Positions 55,356-64,000 of a stretch of DNA of 64,000 nucleotides are shown in pieces (position 1 is the stretch's first letter; each line of letters opens with the position of its first letter). The notes below the pieces were generated by a model, which did not search any database, was not told the DNA's origin, and was given only the letters and a program-made list of their open reading frames with translations. The position numbers and the translations under genes were made by a program. Where the stretch lies: NCBI RefSeq assembly GCF_902506345.1, contig NZ_LR733413.1, positions 1,528,569 to 1,592,568 of the forward strand, written 5' to 3'. This DNA is from Flavobacterium sp. 9R (GTDB taxonomy: Bacteria > Bacteroidota > Bacteroidia > Flavobacteriales > Flavobacteriaceae).

Positions 55356-56369
55356 CTATTGTAAAGGTTTGTCTACTACGATGCGTTCGGGTCTGTTGGC
55401 CAATTCCCAAGCCATAGCAAAGGCCAATTGGGTTCTTTTGGCTAGGGCATCAAACTCGATTTTACTGACTTCATCGGTTTTTTTATGGTAGTCTTCGTGT
55501 ACGCCATTGAACAAAAATACCGACGGAATGCCATTTTTGGCGAAGTTGTAATGGTCGGAACGCTCATAAAAATGATTGGGATCCTTCTTGTCGTTGTATT
55601 TGAAATCCAAATCCAATTTGGTGTATTTTTCGTTGGCTGCCACAGTGATTTCGTGTAGTTGACTCGACAATCTATCGGCACCAATGACATAAACGTAATT
55701 GTTGGTTTTGGGATGGTCGAAATCGCGACGTCCAATCATGTCAATATTGATGTCGGCAATGGTATTTTTTAAAGGAAATAATGGGTTTTTGGCATAATAA
55801 CGAGAACCGTGCAAGCCGTGTTCTTCGCCTGTTACATGCAAAATTAAGATGGAACGTTTAGGCCCGTGACCTTGTTTTTTTGCCAGTTGAAAGGCTTGTG
55901 CGATTTCTAAAAGTGCCACGGTTCCTGAGCCATCGTCGTCGGCACCGTTGTAAACGTCACCATTTTTAACGCCAACATGGTCGTAATGGGCAGAAATGAC
56001 CAAGATTTCCTCTGGTTTTTCAGTCCCCTTGATGAATGCCCAAATGTTTTCGGAATCATTGAGTTTTGATCCGTAACGGGTGTTCATGAACTCGGCGGGT
56101 ACTTTTTGGTAATAGTCGGTAGCACCATCGGGAAACGAAATGCCATTTTTTTTGTATTGTTCGATGAGATAACGACCGGCTTTTTTTTGGCCTTCGGTTC
56201 CTGTGTCACGTCCTTCCATTTCGTCGGATGCCACGATAGTCAGGTGTTTTTTTAGGTCGGTTTGGGTAATGGTAGCCAGGTATTTTTGTATAGGAGCTGC
56301 TTTGGTTTTGTTTTGTGCCGTACATGAAAGGCAAACAAGTACAGCGCATACTAGTGCTTTTTGAATCAT
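55356..56369 (-). CDS. M28-family zinc peptidase, lipoprotein
   Basis: 337 residues. Lipobox VCLSC (Cys16). Zinc ligands in the family order: ISAHYDHVGVKNGDVYNGADDDGSG (His, Asp), VTGEEHGLHGSRYY (Glu-Glu), then DIDMIGR and the C-terminal YERSDHYNF His. Exported aminopeptidase releasing N-terminal amino acids from peptides. It is a separate gene, 218 bases from the dienelactone-hydrolase-like gene upstream. Confidence 0.9.
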   Translation of the reverse strand: MIQKALVCAVLVCLSCTAQNKTKAAPIQKYLATITQTDLKKHLTIVASDEMEGRDTGTEGQKKAGRYLIEQYKKNGISFPDGATDYYQKVPAEFMNTRYGSKLNDSENIWAFIKGTEKPEEILVISAHYDHVGVKNGDVYNGADDDGSGTVALLEIAQAFQLAKKQGHGPKRSILILHVTGEEHGLHGSRYYAKNPLFPLKNTIADINIDMIGRRDFDHPKTNNYVYVIGADRLSSQLHEITVAANEKYTKLDLDFKYNDKKDPNHFYERSDHYNFAKNGIPSVFLFNGVHEDYHKKTDEVSKIEFDALAKRTQLAFAMAWELANRPERIVVDKPLQ

Positions 56370-56587: not shown

Positions 56588-57361
56588 TTATTTTTTTAAA
56601 ATTTCGTTTAAGAAAAGTTGCATGTGTTCGAAGGAACGTTTTGCAGCTTTTTCATTGTAAGCAGCTCCTTTGGAGTTGTCGTTTCCTGCGTTTGGATCGG
56701 TAAAGGAGTGCACGGCATTGGCATAATAAATCATTTCCCAATCGGCTTTGGCATCGCGCATTTCTTGTTGAAAGGCTGCAATTTCTTCTTTGGGTACAAA
56801 GGGATCATCGGCACCGTGACAAGCTAAAACTTTAGCTTGGATTGGAGCAGTGGCACGGGCTGCATCTTTACCTAAGCCGCCGTGAAAGGATACCACTCCT
56901 TTGATGTTCATATTGCCTCTTGCAGCTTCTAAAGCGCCTGTTCCTCCAAAGCAAAAACCAATAACGGCAATATTATCAGCATTAGCGCCAGATTGAATGA
57001 GTTGTGCCAAGGCTAGGCTAATTCTTTTTTGATACAAATCGGTGTTCTTTTTGTAATAACCTGCATTTTTCCCAGCTTCGGTATTGTCTTTTGGGTAGTT
57101 TCCTTCGCCGTAAATATCAGCAATAAAGGCGTGGTACCCTAGATTTGATAATTCGATAGCGGTTTGTTTGGAATGGTCATCAATACCTTTCCACGCGGGA
57201 AGAATCAGGATTCCTGGTTTTTGGCTGCTTTTTTTCTTGGGTTGAATAGCAAAGCCGTTTAGTTTTTGATTGCCATCTTGATAAGAAATGGCTTTTAATT
57301 GGGCATTACTTGATAGACTACAAAATAGTAGCGTTAAGAATAGGACAGTTATATTTCTCAT
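56588..57361 (-). CDS. Exported dienelactone-hydrolase family protein
   Basis: 257 residues from the ATG at 57361. A start 18 bases upstream is open but dilutes the signal peptide MRNITVLFLTLLFCSLSSNAQ. Alpha/beta hydrolase with Cys nucleophile in VIGFCFGGTGALEAARG (about 134-150), acid in LACHGADDPFVP, and His in NAVHSFTDPNAG. Family members hydrolyse lactones or esters, but exported Bacteroidota versions have unknown substrates. It stands alone, with AT-rich inverted repeats downstream. Confidence 0.88.
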   Translation of the reverse strand: MRNITVLFLTLLFCSLSSNAQLKAISYQDGNQKLNGFAIQPKKKSSQKPGILILPAWKGIDDHSKQTAIELSNLGYHAFIADIYGEGNYPKDNTEAGKNAGYYKKNTDLYQKRISLALAQLIQSGANADNIAVIGFCFGGTGALEAARGNMNIKGVVSFHGGLGKDAARATAPIQAKVLACHGADDPFVPKEEIAAFQQEMRDAKADWEMIYYANAVHSFTDPNAGNDNSKGAAYNEKAAKRSFEHMQLFLNEILKK

Positions 57362-57397
57362 AGGGTTAGTTTTTAACAAATATCAGTAATATTACTC

Positions 57398-57432
57398 AAA
57401 AAAAATACCCTCGTGAAAAATTTACGAGGGCA
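57398..57432 (-). terminator. Terminator of the Lrp-S51-acylase run
   Basis: On the minus strand TGCCCTCGT pairs with ACGAGGGTA around a loop of about 10 bases and is followed by a T8 run, 20 bases past the acylase stop. Confidence 0.85.
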
Positions 57433-57451: not shown

Positions 57452-59653
57452 TTACTCACCAGGATGATAGGTTTTCTCAGCATTTTTTTGGACGTCATCT
57501 TTGTAGAATAAAACGTCTTTGAATTGAGCGTTTTGATACATTTTGGCTTGGTCAAAAAAGTGTTTCGAGTTAGGGTCTCCTGAATTTCCTCCTGCCAATA
57601 AAGACTTGGCTTTTATTTTTGGACCAAATTCAACCGCGCAAATAAAGCTGTTACCGTTGTAACCATAGCGTTTTTTGCTGTTGTTTTGATACGAACTTTT
57701 GAAAGCAGGTAAACTTCCCCACAATACAGAAGCGGTGCCCATAGCTAAGCTTTCTTGGTTGTCGTCATAGGTTAAATCTATGTCTCCCGATGGACGTTGA
57801 AAACGGTTAATGTCTCCCCACGGAATTTCCCATTTTCCAAATTTAGTTCGCAGTTCTTGTATAACTTCTCGCAATTGTGGTAACATATCATCAATGCCAG
57901 CAGTTTTGGCAAACTCGGACATATTCTCTACTTGGTCTTTTTCACCTTCGTCAATGTAGACTTTTTGCAAAATTGGATTCAATTTGAACGCCCATTCATT
58001 GGCCAAGGTAGTCGCCACAGAATTTACATTCGAATAATAATTCCAATTTTTCAACACTTGAATAGGAGCTTCTAAATCTTTGAATTTGGGTTCTTGGGCT
58101 TGAGCGTCTTTTTCAAAATTGGCAATCAAAGCAGGAAGTAACACTTCAAAAGCTGATAATTTGGTGTCGTAACCATCTGCAATCAAATTGTCTAAGGTGT
58201 ATTTTTTGTCTTGGCTAAAAATACGAACGGCATTGATTCCTCTAAAGTTTTCCCCGTCAGGCGCCATATAAGGCAAATAGTTGGATTCTTTTGGGCTGTT
58301 GTTACCTGCTACAGAATAGGGCGTGGAGTTGCAATTTTGGAGCCATCCGTTACTAGGGTTGTACAAATGCACGATTTCAGATACTGGATGCAAACCTTTC
58401 CATTGGGTTTTGGATGTGGTTCCATCGACTACTTTTGCCCAATTGAGGCTTTTGTCGCGCATCGGAATAAAGTTCCCGTGCCAATAGGCAATGTTCCCTT
58501 TGTTGTCTGCATACACAGTATTGTTAGACGTGTTGGCTTTTAAATCCATCGCTTTTTGATAGTCCTTGAAATCCTTTGATTTGGTTCTCACCCAACTTTG
58601 GACCAAACTTTCCATATTGCGGTTTTTGGATTTCAAGCTGATCCATTTTCCGTCTCGCTTAGCCATAATCGGACCGTGAATCGTAAAATACGTCTTGATG
58701 GTTTTGGAGGCCAATTGTCCTTTATCTAAATATTTAAGAACGATATTTTTTTCTTTTACTGGCAATAATTTTCCATCGTATTCATAAAAAAGTTTACCTT
58801 TTTGCTCAACTATTTTTTCTGCATACATATCGGCTACATCTACATTCGAAGACGTATGCATCCAGCCACAGTTTTCATTAAAACCTTGGTAAATAAAAAA
58901 TTGTCCCCAAGTCACGGCTCCGTAGGCATTCAATCCTTCTTGGCTGCTGATTTGGATTTCGGGTCTGAAATAAAAAGTTGTGTGTGGATTGATGTACAAA
59001 AGCGCATTTCCCGAAGTTGATTTTGAAGGTGCAATGGCAAATCCATTAGAACCCGTTTGTACATTTACATCTCGTTCTACATAAGCTACTTTGTCGTTAT
59101 TGCCAGAGTAAAAAGCTTTCAATTCACCAGTAGTTAAGTCGGCGGTGCTAATCGCGCCAATACTGCCGTCGGTCCAAAGCAAAGGAAACCAAGGTTCAAA
59201 ACGAGTCAGCAATAATGGTTTTACTTCAGGATGCTTGTACAAGTAATAGTTGATGGCATCGGCATAACTGTTCATTAATTTTTTGAGCCAAGGCGCCGCT
59301 TTTTTGTAATCGGCTTTGGCTTCTTCAGCGTCAATAAGTAAACGGGTTTCTAAATCGTTGTACAAAACGCCAGCGCCTTTTACTTCGGCCAAACGTCCTA
59401 ACTTATCGATATAGTTCATTTCGACACGCTTAAAGTCGTCTTCGCATTGCGCGTACAACATACCAAAAACGGCATCAGCATCGGTCTTGCCGTATACGTG
59501 AGCAATGCCCCAATTGTCTCTGATGATGGTGACTTGTTTGGCTTGTTGCTCCATTCGTTTTATTTCTGAAGCAGTTAATTGTTGTGCCCAAATCGAAGTC
59601 ATTGGACTCAATAGTAGCATCCAAACAATCGCCCAATAGTGTTGTGTTTTCAT
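57452..59653 (-). CDS. Exported penicillin-acylase family (Ntn-hydrolase) enzyme
   Basis: 733 residues from the ATG at 59653; the longer frame adds ten residues that overlap the upstream gene. Signal peptide ending IWAQ (24). N-terminal nucleophile Ser202 in QTGSNGFAIAPSKS after an alpha chain and spacer, the penicillin-acylase/AHL-acylase/aculeacin-acylase pattern. Later NPHTTFYFRPEIQISS and GNIAYWHGNFIPMR. It cleaves an amide bond of an unknown acyl- or peptidyl-substrate outside the cytoplasm. ATG lies one base after the stop of the upstream S51 gene, so translation is coupled. Confidence 0.9.
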   Translation of the reverse strand: MKTQHYWAIVWMLLLSPMTSIWAQQLTASEIKRMEQQAKQVTIIRDNWGIAHVYGKTDADAVFGMLYAQCEDDFKRVEMNYIDKLGRLAEVKGAGVLYNDLETRLLIDAEEAKADYKKAAPWLKKLMNSYADAINYYLYKHPEVKPLLLTRFEPWFPLLWTDGSIGAISTADLTTGELKAFYSGNNDKVAYVERDVNVQTGSNGFAIAPSKSTSGNALLYINPHTTFYFRPEIQISSQEGLNAYGAVTWGQFFIYQGFNENCGWMHTSSNVDVADMYAEKIVEQKGKLFYEYDGKLLPVKEKNIVLKYLDKGQLASKTIKTYFTIHGPIMAKRDGKWISLKSKNRNMESLVQSWVRTKSKDFKDYQKAMDLKANTSNNTVYADNKGNIAYWHGNFIPMRDKSLNWAKVVDGTTSKTQWKGLHPVSEIVHLYNPSNGWLQNCNSTPYSVAGNNSPKESNYLPYMAPDGENFRGINAVRIFSQDKKYTLDNLIADGYDTKLSAFEVLLPALIANFEKDAQAQEPKFKDLEAPIQVLKNWNYYSNVNSVATTLANEWAFKLNPILQKVYIDEGEKDQVENMSEFAKTAGIDDMLPQLREVIQELRTKFGKWEIPWGDINRFQRPSGDIDLTYDDNQESLAMGTASVLWGSLPAFKSSYQNNSKKRYGYNGNSFICAVEFGPKIKAKSLLAGGNSGDPNSKHFFDQAKMYQNAQFKDVLFYKDDVQKNAEKTYHPGE

Positions 59654-59654
59654 T

Positions 59655-60509
59655 TTATTGAATATTAAATTTTTGACCTTCAATCAAAACGCTCATCTCT
59701 AAAGATTTGATGCTAACGAGATGATTCTTTGGAGCTTTCTTGATTTCTTTAGGATTTTTAACCACGATGACTTCGCTTTCGCCTACGACTTCTATGTTTT
59801 TGTCTCTCACGACAATGCCGGTACTTTCGTCAATTCCAATTCCAACGTGATTTGGAAAATCGACTAAGCCTGTCAGTAAGCGATTGTAACGACTTCTTTT
59901 TAGAAAATGCTGGTCAATAATTACGTTTTTTACTAAGCCCAAACCTGAGTTGATTTCAAGATTGTCATAACGGATATTATCAAAAGTTTCGGTGTATTTG
60001 GTTTCTAATTTTTGGTTGCCAGTAATCATATTTTCGCACATCACAGCTGCACCAGCACTAGTTCCTGCAATAGTACTGCCGTTTTGATGCGCTTTGTGAA
60101 TGGCATCATAAATCGGAGTTCCGCGAACTACTCCCATAAAACGGGTTTGATCTCCACCGCTTATGAAGATGAGTTTGGCTTTTTGAAGCGAATCGGTAAG
60201 AACTTTATTTTGACTGCTGGTTTTGTCAAAATTGAGCATCACGATAGGATGTGGGGTTAATTTACTTAATTGTTTTTTGAAATAAATATAGGCACTATCA
60301 GGTTCTTCACTGGACATTGGAAGCACTACAATAAAATCTTTGGTTTTTAAATCAGCTACTTTTAGCATTTGATTCATCAATACATCAGAGCGTTTTCCGC
60401 CACCAATGATGAATAATTTTCCTTTGTTTTTTTGAGCTTCAACTATAGTGGTTGATAGTAAAAGTAGGGTAATAAAAAGCTGGTTTAGTCTTACTTTTGG
60501 CAATTGCAT
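59655..60509 (-). CDS. Exported cyanophycinase-family (S51) protein 1
   Basis: 284 residues. Signal peptide ending VEAQ (26). S51 landmarks: GKLFIIGGGKRSD, LIFISGGDQTRFMGVVRGTP (112-132), nucleophile Ser151 in AGTSAGAAVM, and IIDQHFLKRSRYNRLL with His201, closest to true cyanophycinases, which hydrolyse the Asp-Arg backbone polymer to beta-Asp-Arg. Substrate is unproven. It starts 54 bases after the second S51 gene and is directly followed by the acylase. Confidence 0.85.
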   Translation of the reverse strand: MQLPKVRLNQLFITLLLLSTTIVEAQKNKGKLFIIGGGKRSDVLMNQMLKVADLKTKDFIVVLPMSSEEPDSAYIYFKKQLSKLTPHPIVMLNFDKTSSQNKVLTDSLQKAKLIFISGGDQTRFMGVVRGTPIYDAIHKAHQNGSTIAGTSAGAAVMCENMITGNQKLETKYTETFDNIRYDNLEINSGLGLVKNVIIDQHFLKRSRYNRLLTGLVDFPNHVGIGIDESTGIVVRDKNIEVVGESEVIVVKNPKEIKKAPKNHLVSIKSLEMSVLIEGQKFNIQ

Positions 60510-60563
60510 AATAAATGGTATTAATAGTGAAAAAGTATTCAGAATGGGTTGATGTTACTTCGT

Positions 60564-61658
60564 TTATTCTATAGAAAGAACACCATCAGTAACATACATA
60601 TTTTTAGAAGTTCCGCCAGAAATAGTGCTCCAATTGGTCAAATCAAAAGAACCATTTCCAGTTTCTTTACCTGTGATTAAGTAGGCTTGAATGGCTTTTT
60701 TATTGTTTATCCAATTGAGCTTGCTGCCTGCTACACATTTCTCAGGTTTTTCACTACTAGCTTTCAAAAAATAAGCAAAACCAGTTCCATAAACTACCGC
60801 TTTGCCGTTTTCGTCAATACAAACGGCTGTTTCTTCTTGCACTCCAATACCTTTGGGTTGTTGCCAGTTAAATTCAGTAGCTAAACGTGCTAGAAAAGTG
60901 ATTTGTCTGCCTTTTCTATCAGGGTTGTTATAATGGGTGTCGGTAATTGTATTTTTAAGAAAAGGATTGTTGATAAAATCACTTTTTGCTAAAGTCATTT
61001 TTAAGTCAAAAGGATTCAATAAAGCTTCCTCAGAAGTAATAGTATTGTTTTCAGCGGTAAAAACGGCTTCACCCATAATGGCGCAACCTGCGCTAGTTCC
61101 TCCAACGGGTACTTTTTTTACATTAATTAGGTAATTAAGCGCCTCTTCAACGGGAGTGTTTCTCCAAAAGCGAATATAATTGGCTTGATCTCCACCAGCA
61201 ATGAATAGCATTTCAGCTTCTTTGATACGTTCAGCTACTTTTGGATTGTTGGCAAGTTCGGCACTGTTTATAAGTAAGGTTTCAACAGAATTTACTTGGC
61301 GGATGCCATTTACTTTTACTAAATCGTATAAGTATTGATTGTAACCTGTTGCCCCTGATGCTCTAATGATTACTACATCTCCTCCGATGCTTTTGTTGAT
61401 CATCCATTTCATTGCACTGTCTACATCAGTAGAACCTCCCATTAAAACTGTCCCAGCACTAGTCGTTACTGTAACATCTTTTGGGTCTCCCACGATTCCT
61501 ATCGAAGAGGGGATAGGAGTGTAGGTAGTAGGGGTTGGAGTTGGTTTTTCGGATTCGTTAGAATCACTACTACAAGCCAGTAAACTGAATGATAAAAGAA
61601 AAGAAGAAGCTAGTAAAACGCCATTTTTGGTTGGTTTGGTTAGAAAATCAGGGAACAT
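60564..61658 (-). CDS. Cyanophycinase-like (S51) lipoprotein 2
   Basis: 364 residues. Lipobox LLAC (Cys29), then a Pro/Thr-rich linker (about 36-52). S51 core: IGGDVVIIRASGATGYNQYL, AGGDQANYIRFWRNTPVEEA, nucleophile Ser189 in GGTSAGCAIM, and DTHYNNPDRKGRQITFLARL with His242. The DTHY variant in place of DQHF, and a C-terminal extension ending GTSKNMYVTDGVLSIE, separate it from protein 1. It starts 11 bases after the Lrp gene, so the regulator and the peptidase are one transcript. Confidence 0.82.
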   Translation of the reverse strand: MFPDFLTKPTKNGVLLASSFLLSFSLLACSSDSNESEKPTPTPTTYTPIPSSIGIVGDPKDVTVTTSAGTVLMGGSTDVDSAMKWMINKSIGGDVVIIRASGATGYNQYLYDLVKVNGIRQVNSVETLLINSAELANNPKVAERIKEAEMLFIAGGDQANYIRFWRNTPVEEALNYLINVKKVPVGGTSAGCAIMGEAVFTAENNTITSEEALLNPFDLKMTLAKSDFINNPFLKNTITDTHYNNPDRKGRQITFLARLATEFNWQQPKGIGVQEETAVCIDENGKAVVYGTGFAYFLKASSEKPEKCVAGSKLNWINNKKAIQAYLITGKETGNGSFDLTNWSTISGGTSKNMYVTDGVLSIE

Positions 61659-61669
61659 TATTTAGTGGT

Positions 61670-62122
61670 TTATAAGGTTACATTGCGCTTAAAGGCACAA
61701 CCTAACTCGATTATAGAATCGGTTTTGGCTATACCCGGAATGTTATCTATTTTTTCATACAGCAATTTTCTCATATGTTCGTGATCTTTTGCAATCAACT
61801 TTATATATAAGGTGAAGGAGCCGGTAATAAAATAACATTCGGTTATTTCTGGAATTTCTTTCAATTCGTCAATAACTCTTTTTGAATCGGCATCTTTATT
61901 TAAGGTAATACCGGTAAAAGCACCCCAGTCATAACCAATTTTTTTCTCGTTAATTACAGGTTTGATTCCAGTAATTACACCTTGGTCAATTAATCGGTTG
62001 ATTCGTTGATGCACCATCGTATTCGAAATTTTGAGACTAGTGGCAATAGCAGAAAAAGCCATTCTACCATCTTTCTCTAATTCCTTAATAATATTGATGT
62101 CAAATTCGTCTAATACTTCCAT
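61670..62122 (-). CDS. Lrp/AsnC-family transcriptional regulator
   Basis: 150 residues. N-terminal helix-turn-helix (FDINIIKELEKDGRMAFSAIATSLKISNTMVHQRINRLIDQGVI) and C-terminal RAM effector domain (ITECYFITGSFTLYIKLIAKDHEHMRKLLYEKI). It diverges from rocD with a 244-base AT-rich gap and heads the run of S51 genes. An amino acid (arginine or ornithine being the obvious candidates) probably controls it; that is inference from neighbours. Confidence 0.93.
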   Translation of the reverse strand: MEVLDEFDINIIKELEKDGRMAFSAIATSLKISNTMVHQRINRLIDQGVITGIKPVINEKKIGYDWGAFTGITLNKDADSKRVIDELKEIPEITECYFITGSFTLYIKLIAKDHEHMRKLLYEKIDNIPGIAKTDSIIELGCAFKRNVTL

Positions 62123-62328
62123 TTTTAAATGTATTTTTAAGTTAAAATCACTTTTTATTTCATTTATAAAAGTAATTATTTTTATTTCATTTCAAAATTA
62201 AAGTATTAATTCGATTTCAAAAATAACAAAATGACTTTAATAAGTGCAAAAAAAACAAAAAAATATTTTTTTAAAGAAAAAAATGAGTCAAAATTTACTT
62301 TTTTTAGAAATATTTAAATTAATTATAT

Positions 62329-62336
62329 TACTTTTG
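62329..62336 (+). promoter_or_regulatory. -7 box of the rocD promoter
   Basis: TACTTTTG, an exact TAnnTTTG match, 30 bases upstream of the rocD ATG, preceded by a very AT-rich stretch with T-rich -33 sequence. The whole 62123-62366 gap is suited to Lrp wrapping, but no single site can be called. Confidence 0.55.
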
Positions 62337-62366
62337 TCTCATAAATATTAATTAAAGACCTATAAA

Positions 62367-63650
62367 ATGATACATACAGAACAAATTCTCTCTTCAAAAT
62401 CCGAAGTTTTGATTTCAAAAGAAGACCAATACGGCGCACATAATTATCATCCGTTACCGGTAGTTTTAGAGCGAGGGGAAGGAGTTTATGTCTGGGATGT
62501 TGATGGGAAAAAATACTTTGATTTTCTTTCTGCTTATTCAGCCGTGAATCAAGGACATTGTCATCCAAAAATTGTTGGAGCAATGGTAGAGCAAGCTCAA
62601 AAGTTGACCTTAACTTCTCGTGCTTTTCACAATGATAAATTAGGCGTATTCGAAGAATATATTACTGATTATTTTGGCTTTGATAAAGTTTTACCAATGA
62701 ATACTGGAGCTGAAGCGGTAGAAACTGCTTTAAAATTATGCCGTAAATGGGCGTATGAAGTGAAAGGTATTCCAGAAAATCAAGCACAAGTGATTGTTTG
62801 CGAAAATAATTTCCACGGTAGAACTACTACTATTATTTCTTTTTCTAATGATGAAGGAGCGCGTAAAAGTTTTGGTCCATTCACCGAAGGTTTTATCAGG
62901 ATTCCATATGATGATATTGATGCATTAGAAAAAGCGTTACAATCTTCGCCAAATATTGCTGGATTTTTAGTGGAACCTATCCAAGGTGAAGCTGGAGTTT
63001 ATGTTCCATCAGAAGGTTATTTGGCTAAAGCTAAAGCACTTTGTGAAGCGCATAATGCACTTTTTATTGCTGATGAGGTACAAACTGGAATTGCTCGTAC
63101 CGGTCGTTTATTGGCTACTTGCGGGAATTGTTCTTGTGAAAAAGGTTGTGAGAAAACACCTGAAGTAAAACCAGATATTCTTATTCTAGGGAAAGCCATT
63201 TCTGGTGGCGTTTATCCAGTATCGGCAGTTTTGGCCAATAATGAGATTATGAATGTGATCAAACCAGGGCAACACGGATCTACTTTTGGTGGAAATCCAG
63301 TGGCTGCTGCTGTCGCTATTGCTGCTTTGGAAGTGATAAAAGATGAGAATTTGGCTGCTAACGCAGATCGCTTAGGAAACATACTAAGACAAGGTTTAAA
63401 TGATATAGCTGCCAGAAATCCATTAATTGCTTTGGTGAGAGGAAAAGGTTTGTTGAATGCTATTGTCATCAACAGCGATGAAGATTCTGATTTGGCTTGG
63501 GATATTTGTTTGCGTTTTAGAGATTATGGTTTGTTAGCCAAACCAACTCACGGAAACAAAATTCGTTTTGCACCACCATTGGTAATTACCGAAGAGCAAA
63601 TTCAAGAGTGTTTAGCGATTATTGAAAAAGCGTTAAATGACTTTATCTAG
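62367..63650 (+). CDS. rocD: Ornithine aminotransferase
   Basis: 427 residues, PLP-dependent class III aminotransferase converting ornithine to glutamate-5-semialdehyde. N-terminus [32 protein letters not shown] is diagnostic; then [38 protein letters not shown] and PLP Lys276 in [11 protein letters not shown]. It is slightly longer than usual because of an insertion with four cysteines (252, 255, 257, 261: [11 protein letters not shown]) just before the lysine segment. It is 8 bases upstream of the arginase gene. Confidence 0.95.
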
Positions 63651-63658
63651 GAAGTTGT

Positions 63659-64000
63659 ATGAAGCCTATCAAATTAATTAAAAATAGATCGGATATCGGA
63701 GCGGGAACTCGCGGCTCTGATTTAGGAGTAGATGCTATTGAAATTGCAGCTATCAATCAAGGAAGTGATTATTTTAACCAGTTTCCTTTTGAAGATATTA
63801 AAACGCACAACGAGTCGATTTATGATAAAGATCGAAGTACAGTAGCTAAGCGTATTGAGCACGTTGTGGAGCAATGTATTCGTGTAAATAACTCGATTCA
63901 GAAAAACTTGAAAGATTATTTTCCTATTGTACTTTCAGGAGATCACTCCTCGGCTTTAGGAACGATTAGTGGCATAAAATCTGCATTTCCAGAACAAAAT
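63659..64000 (+). CDS. rocF: Arginase, N-terminal part
   Basis: Partial: the first 114 codons lie in the window and the gene continues off the right edge. Translation IKLIKNRSDIGAGTRGSDLG... resembles Bacteroidota arginases; the first metal ligand His lies in VLSGDHSSALG (about 95-105), and the second metal motif lies outside. It hydrolyses arginine to ornithine and urea, feeding rocD. The ATG at 63659 follows the rocD stop by 8 bases. Confidence 0.9.
   Translation, partial: MKPIKLIKNRSDIGAGTRGSDLGVDAIEIAAINQGSDYFNQFPFEDIKTHNESIYDKDRSTVAKRIEHVVEQCIRVNNSIQKNLKDYFPIVLSGDHSSALGTISGIKSAFPEQN

Follow-up and report, generated by a model that had tools for sequence, protein, structure and literature searches.

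A Flavobacterium locus joining a cyanophycinase-type S51 peptidase to an S45 acylase and a SusC-SusD pair: a candidate for cyanophycin scavenging

Introduction

Many cyanobacteria store nitrogen as cyanophycin, a polymer of arginine and aspartate, and to our knowledge the organisms that consume it after lysis are poorly known. The present work concerns a locus of Flavobacterium sp. 9R, situated at the end of a 64,000-nt stretch of DNA (the window), where genes for an S45-family acylase, two S51-family peptidases (S51a and S51b) and an Lrp/AsnC-family regulator diverge from those for the ornithine aminotransferase RocD and an arginase. The host genome spans 3.58 Mb and is 99.94% complete. The best explanation for the presence of S51b, the acylase and a SusC-SusD pair on an Lrp-RocD(-arginase) module appears to be a new variant of cyanophycin-scavenging locus.

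The closest described systems are cyanophycin-scavenging clusters, which associate a cyanophycinase with an isoaspartyl dipeptidase and lack cphA1 (Sharon and Schmeing 2023, PMC10206079). As these clusters are portrayed in the relevant passages of that article, the Flavobacterium locus likewise has a cyanophycinase, lacks a cphA over the family cut-off and includes a transporter together with an amide hydrolase candidate. It differs by an S45 acylase in place of IaaA or IadA, by a transporter of the SusC-SusD type, encoded next to the arginase gene and with a cargo that is not fixed by sequence, and by the attachment of arginase, rocD and lrp. No IaaA or IadA, the two families sought, was found in the window cluster. 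A passage of the same article on cphA1-bearing genomes states that, in Firmicutes and Bacteroidota, the isoaspartyl dipeptidases are still undiscovered.

The two cyanophycinases used here for comparison are the cyanobacterial CphB and CphE, an extracellular enzyme of Pseudomonas. In the passages of PMC3235067 that bear on CphB, Gln101, Asp172, Gln173, Arg178, Arg180 and Arg183 are given as critical, together with the catalytic Ser132, His174 and a Glu. The idea of TonB-linked uptake is shared with Citromicrobium, a proteobacterium with a TonB-dependent transporter beside a cyanophycinase; the corresponding passages name neither SusD nor an acylase nor rocD alongside that transporter (PMC3400609). 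Expression of cphA in F. psychrophilum (PMC9723704) and cyanophycin genes in a Dyadobacter (PMC11573002) are also on record in the parts of these papers concerned. No account of the present gene set was found among the open-licence PMC papers listed for cyanophycinase with acylase, Flavobacterium, SusCD and arginase.

Results

S51b (59655-60509, minus strand, 284 aa) matches the Peptidase_S51 model with 78 bits and the cyanophycinase model TIGR02069 with 177.5 bits, above the cut-off of 126.6, whereas the PepE model yields only 41.7 bits. Its solved relatives are the cyanophycinases 7uqv and 3en0. All the listed CphB residues are retained (Gln121, Ser151, Asp-Gln-His201, three Arg and Glu228), every listed catalytic and substrate residue being common to S51b and CphB (3en0, 7uqw). 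The full set was found in 49/49 acylase-adjacent S51b proteins scored by script, and also, reading by eye, in the 50th (genome G339), which has GSSAG for GTSAG. By family score and residues, S51b is predicted to be a CphB-type cyanophycinase. It departs from CphB in being probably exported, as its 284 residues include a plain signal peptide. Signal peptides, lipoboxes and other export signals were called by eye throughout. Because S51b and the acylase both carry plain signal peptides, they probably reside in the periplasm instead of being set free outside the cell.

Conservation was surveyed in 398 Flavobacterium genomes searched with S51a, the acylase and S51b, which gave matches in 39 (E to 1e-60), 82 (E to 1e-90) and 75 genomes (E to 1e-25), respectively. 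A thin draw of 158 genomes from the order yielded acylase matches in 10 (E to 1e-60) and S51b matches in 8 (E to 1e-25). In all, 84 acylase loci were annotated, from 81 of the 82 genomes (the fragmented G131 was dropped), with second copies in two genomes and one locus from the order search (G506). S51b immediately precedes the acylase in 50/84 loci, with gaps of -29 to 11 bases, mostly 1 or 2. A close S51b orthologue (at least 65% identity) exists in 51 of the 75 matching genomes; 49 of these 51 adjoin the acylase and the other two (G070, G110) stand beside SusC-SusD. S51b and the acylase thus constitute a conserved unit. The initial annotation had singled out the S51 pair plus acylase as the set, but that trio is rare, S51a being present in 3/84 acylase loci (G000, G168 and G208). 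This figure covers acylase loci alone, and further S51a orthologues with 65-74% identity were found by protein search.

The linkage of the genes is otherwise kept across the genus, as seen in the conservation survey called for in the initial annotation. F. succinicans LMG 10402 has the same gene order, minus the dienelactone-hydrolase gene, and was the only genome with the locus among the named genomes scanned. As its DNA is identical to that of survey genome G208, the two count as one witness. Since the arrangement is kept in F. succinicans and largely in many other Flavobacterium genomes, it is not due to chance.

Second only to the acylase, the strongest partner of S51b is a susD-susC pair (L002 11047-15461), which lies immediately beyond the window end, convergent with the arginase gene, and out of the view of the initial annotation. 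Association was scored in the 67 loci that have rocD, lrp and more than 8 kb upstream of the acylase; the other 17, being truncated or lacking lrp-rocD, were left out. SusC-SusD accompanies S51b in 36/42 loci and occurs in 1/25 loci that lack S51b (Fisher 1.3e-11, a value inflated by relatedness). A quick acylase tree requires no fewer than 14 changes for S51b and 10 for SusCD. In the usual pairing, six tree-independent pairs pointed the same way, none the other way and three showed no difference (median p 0.03). Because S51b associates with both the acylase and SusCD, these three look like the functional core.

SusD and SusC have 53% and 71% amino acid identity to their F. succinicans counterparts (L002 against L004), with dS of 2.0 and 1.4, while dS is 0.20-0.38 for rocD, arginase, S51a, S51b, acylase and M28 genes. 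As the SusCD values are far above those of the neighbours, the alleles look to have been swapped in place.

S51a (60564-61658, minus strand, 364 aa) matches PF03575 Peptidase_S51 with 41 bits and begins with a lipobox (LLAC), as befits a lipoprotein. Its TIGR02069 score of 70.8 bits is under the cut-off of 126.6, which is set for cyanophycinase at large. The equivalents of the CphE Ser, Thr-His, Glu and Gln136 are kept as Ser189, Asp-Thr-His242, Glu275 and Gln158. According to the passages on CphE in PMC3235067, the two proteins share a Thr in place of Gln before the catalytic His (Thr223-His224 in CphE), a Ser-His spacing of 53 and an export signal. Compared with CphE as described there, S51a has Pro for Arg228, the lipobox and a His-Glu spacing of 33 instead of 27. 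It is under purifying selection, with dN/dS of 0.08 to F. succinicans and 0.11 to G168. The view that both S51 proteins are of cyanophycinase type is supported for S51b by score and residues; S51a is CphE-like, but with the lower score and Pro246.

The genome holds two other S51 proteins, of 859 and 235 aa. The former (L018 9043-11622) has an fn3 domain, two GEVED domains and a tail for the type IX secretion system (T9SS), shares 51% identity with S51a in its S51 portion and is likely a secreted enzyme. The latter appears PepE-like by eye. An internal TGA was noted in the T9SS-type S51 gene of G046 (L059). The initial annotation had the S51 proteins and the acylase acting outside the cell: export signals are indeed present, but the enzyme likely to be secreted is the T9SS-tailed paralogue.

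The acylase (57452-59653, minus strand, 733 aa) matches PF01804 Penicil_amidase with 377.7 bits. Its start was taken as ATG 59653; the longest open reading frame (TTG 59683) would overlap S51b. It is an exported Ntn-hydrolase of the S45 penicillin/cephalosporin acylase family with Ser202 as nucleophile. The solved relatives are cephalosporin/glutaryl-7-ACA acylase (160 bits) followed by D-succinylase (81 bits), which belong to the same sequence family and share the equivalents of the nucleophile Ser, His23 and Asn244 (1keh, 7eby). Ser202, His224 and Asn442 are invariant in 89 aligned acylases (84 rows from the genus and five from other genera). The model for the bifunctional acyl-homoserine-lactone acylase PvdQ (NF051460) gave 75.7 bits, far under its cut-off of 950. 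The acyl-carboxylate pocket of 1keh consists of Argb57 and Tyrb33, and Glub455 is a further pocket residue. The alignment places Tyr255, Pro231 and Asn668 at these positions, so that neither the Arg nor the Tyr is retained. Arg230, beside Pro231, never varies in the 89 rows.

The Lrp/AsnC-family regulator (61670-62122, minus strand, 150 aa; PF01037 62.4 bits, PF13412 48.9 bits) is encoded upstream of the acylase in 76/84 loci. Its gene has a dS of 1.66 to that of F. succinicans (84% nucleotide and 95% amino acid identity), compared to 0.2-0.4 for the neighbours, as if recombined. On the opposite strand, rocD (62367-63650, 427 aa) encodes an aminotransferase of class III that matches the ornithine aminotransferase model TIGR01885 with 641.9 bits (cut-off 378.4). 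The arginase gene follows (63659-64000, plus strand, with the first 114 of 318 aa in the window; whole gene L002 9659-10615). The score with TIGR01229, 218.1 bits, is just below the cut-off of 227.6; the gene is called arginase because this is the best family by far (the next gives 69.7 bits) and because the solved relatives among the matches listed are arginases. In the strong form of a core partner, arginase was tried and rejected, as it occurs in 14/42 loci with S51b and 13/25 without.

The divergent control region between lrp and rocD (62123-62366) displays conserved dyads in an alignment of 67 of the 73 intergenic regions; ACAAAAGTA/TACTTTTAT form the outer pair and AATTTTGACT/AAAGTCATTTT the inner one. 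Read toward rocD, ACAAAAGTA resembles a Bacteroidetes -7 box. The arrangement fits what is expected for a putative multi-site Lrp operator, with bidirectional control of rocD and of the lrp-S51-acylase unit. The half-site AAAGTCAWTTT occurs 25 times in the window where 15.1 are expected, above each of 100 shuffles and spread throughout, so that single half-sites mean little. An inverted pair inside the S51a coding sequence (60975-61001) is probably there by chance. Lrp control of the importer was also considered and is unsupported, the half-site not being enriched in susC upstream regions. The co-regulation of the divergent units that had been postulated is thus suggested by the dyads, and this does not extend to the importer.

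A separate sister locus was found in 11 genomes (G006, G030, G054, G063, G094, G151, G184, G217, G230, G358 and G520), its families being scanned on one representative, L053. All 11 have SusC-SusD, an Asparaginase_2 protein (PF01112, beta-aspartyl-peptidase-type) with no signal evident, a permease of the DcuC family and an S51 protein of the S51a/T9 type, which is 47-49% identical to the T9 paralogue and 43-46% to S51a. A relative of S51b (45-48% identity) is found in 8/11; 8/11 likewise have an arginine-deiminase-like and a CtlX-type protein (broken in G230 by a run of N). In L053, CtlX scores above the cut-off, and the best named model for the permease is a basic amino acid antiporter, below cut-off. 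Two S51a-type proteins of the sister locus were checked and carry the same Pro as S51a. The sister locus resembles the probable cyanophycin-scavenging clusters, as far as these are set out in the corresponding passages of PMC10206079. By analogy, it supports the idea that pairs of exported S51 proteins act on cyanophycin in Flavobacterium.

Three related genomes encode S51b and the acylase at a distance from lrp-rocD, facing SusCD and an M14-family protein; the stretch fetched there contains neither lrp nor rocD. Among relocated S51b modules, an M14-family protein is found in L110, L193 and L194, and a beta-lactamase/amidohydrolase fusion in L207. SSF and M20 genes are further present in L110 and L194, the former having in addition a GNAT gene and two alanine-racemase-type genes. 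In 11 loci a protein of 487-517 aa is encoded between lrp and S51b (for example L108 6906-8387), with S51b present in 11/11. The L108 protein, the one scanned of the 11, is a long second M28 peptidase.

The identities of the genes proposed in the initial annotation (two S51 proteins, S45 acylase, Lrp, RocD and arginase) were confirmed, as were the intergenic gaps of 1 base between acylase and S51b, 54 between S51b and S51a, 11 between S51a and lrp, and 8 between rocD and arginase. So was the intrinsic terminator directly 3' of the acylase on the minus strand, a clear hairpin read from the sequence at 57408-57430 (CCCTCGTAAATTTTTCACGAGGG-TATTTTTTTT). In a terminator scan this hairpin was listed for the plus strand only, and the whole region has fewer terminator-like sites than shuffled sequences (5 against 8.5). 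The terminator was thought to end the run, but the conserved block extends past it. An exported protein of the dienelactone-hydrolase family (56588-57379, minus strand; PF01738 142.3 bits) has a counterpart in 65/67 scored loci, and an M28-family peptidase, likely a lipoprotein (55356-56369, minus strand; PF04389 135.2 bits), in 67/67.

Discussion

We lean, with modest confidence, towards seeing the locus as an island for scavenging a nutrient, namely cyanophycin (or a closely similar polymer of Asp and Arg) that other organisms have released. This view has its direct basis in the gene families, the conserved residues, gene synteny and the joint occurrence of S51b with the acylase and with SusCD. 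From these we infer the substrate, the localisation, the order of the steps, the control by Lrp and the identity of the dipeptidase. No cyanophycin synthetase over the family cut-off was found in the host genome, the best match to the cphA model being 118.5 bits against 850, so the polymer would need an outside source. The surface S51a and the T9SS-tailed paralogue would trim the polymer and the SusC-SusD pair would take in soluble pieces. Periplasmic S51b, as a CphB-type exo-cyanophycinase, would cut these to beta-Asp-Arg dipeptides. A partner enzyme would then free the arginine, the candidates being the acylase, the M28 peptidase and the exported asparaginase-2-type enzyme of the genome. Arginase and RocD would convert arginine to ornithine and on to glutamate semialdehyde, and Lrp, whose gene diverges from rocD, is the likely sensor of the amino acid set free.

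Several observations weigh against this cyanophycin reading. In S51a, Pro246 replaces one of three substrate Arg (CphE Arg228), giving Pro-Arg-Arg instead of Arg-Arg-Arg; Pro is found there in 89/120 of the best-listed homologues and Arg-Arg-Arg in 31/120. Arginase is near 27/67 loci only and is independent of S51b (Fisher p 0.20), which makes the arginine link weaker than apparent. The flow from polymer to arginine catabolism that had been proposed retains the arginase and RocD, both real, and an external polymer; arginase as a follower of the cyanophycinase drops out. The half-site of the lrp-rocD region, allowing at most one mismatch, precedes susC in 5/25 cases, against a mean of 2.6 and a largest value of 6 in 30 base shuffles. 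SusCD is missing from 6/42 loci with S51b. The nearest solved relative of the importer by sequence is a SusC homologue for which the listing names no cargo, ahead of the peptide importer RagA, and this is why the cargo is not fixed. The acylase is without adjacent S51b in 34/84 loci, and, by the criterion applied, no acylase position splits S51b-linked from S51b-free sets. Relocated S51b modules, beside M14, M20, SSF, beta-lactamase/amidohydrolase-type or alanine-racemase-type genes, fit wider peptide use.

This wider use could amount to general scavenging of peptides or N-acyl-amino acids, with the acylase, M28 and S51b as exported hydrolases, S51b cutting Asp-containing peptides and cyanophycin being at most one substrate. 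The presence of acylase-M28-lrp-rocD without S51b in 25/67 scored loci would be natural under such a scheme, and so would the long second M28-type peptidase before S51b in 11 loci, the M14 and M20 peptidases of the relocated modules, and the acylase relatives in other genera without S51b. The completeness of the CphB residue set in all scored S51b proteins speaks against it, along with a cyanophycinase score well over that of PepE, and we regard it as a possible but distinctly weaker candidate. It is improbable that Lrp, RocD and arginase carry out ordinary arginine and ornithine catabolism beside unrelated exported hydrolases, the adjacency resulting from shared Lrp control of nitrogen scavenging. 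The failure of arginase to follow S51b and the three S51b-acylase modules that show neither lrp nor rocD in the stretch retrieved would agree with it. Yet lrp is almost constantly upstream of the acylase, the lrp-rocD dyads are conserved, and the separate sister locus joins S51 to arginine/citrulline hydrolases in 8/11 genomes. S51 peptidases can also confer resistance to peptidyl-nucleotide (microcin C-like) antibiotics, as reported in a passage of PMC9239234. Such a defence is very hard to reconcile with S51 proteins that are likely exported, bear cyanophycinase-type residues and are linked with an importer of the outer membrane and with arginine enzymes, when the toxic payload is, in the same passage, freed intracellularly.

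Within the cyanophycin reading, the acylase might be the missing beta-Asp-Arg dipeptidase of Bacteroidota, although we consider this rather unlikely. It would be a periplasmic amidase outside the IaaA, IadA and M14-type cyanophycin dipeptide hydrolase families, cleaving the 2-aminosuccinyl-arginine bond much as its solved relatives do glutaryl and succinyl amides, translationally coupled to S51b and fed by its own SusCD. Beta-Asp-Arg is a chemically plausible substrate, since the relatives of the acylase act, by their names, on amides of short dicarboxylic acids and a beta-aspartyl group may be viewed as aminosuccinyl. The gaps of mostly 1-2 bases between S51b and the acylase argue for this role. 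Isoaspartyl dipeptidases were sought in 45 of the 49 genomes with acylase-linked S51b, the least complete (G104, G247, G335 and G391) being left out. The lack of any PF01112 protein in 9/45 counts for the role of the acylase. An IaaA-like protein, fitting the PF01112 model from its start, in another 9/45 counts against it, and so do the 27/45 genomes with only an AGA-like protein, fitting from position 28-31. The IadA model is over cut-off in just 1/50 genomes, which is favourable, but this genome is that of F. succinicans (G208), the nearest relative, which is not. In the host genome IadA is below cut-off, and PF01112 is found only in a 365-aa protein with a twin-Arg-like signal, encoded away from the cluster. 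Also unfavourable are the loci where the acylase lacks an adjacent S51b, the presence of Tyr255 at the carboxylate-binding Arg of glutaryl acylases, and the acylase relatives (48-50% identity) in five genomes of other genera without any S51b match (E 1e-25) genome-wide. That no acylase residue tracks S51b weakens the proposal further.

As a putative cyanophycin-scavenging locus, the island offers a compact and conserved set of candidates, namely an importer, a cyanophycinase, an acylase and an M28 peptidase. Within it, the acylase and SusCD, which accompany the cyanophycinase, can be told apart from arginase, which does not.

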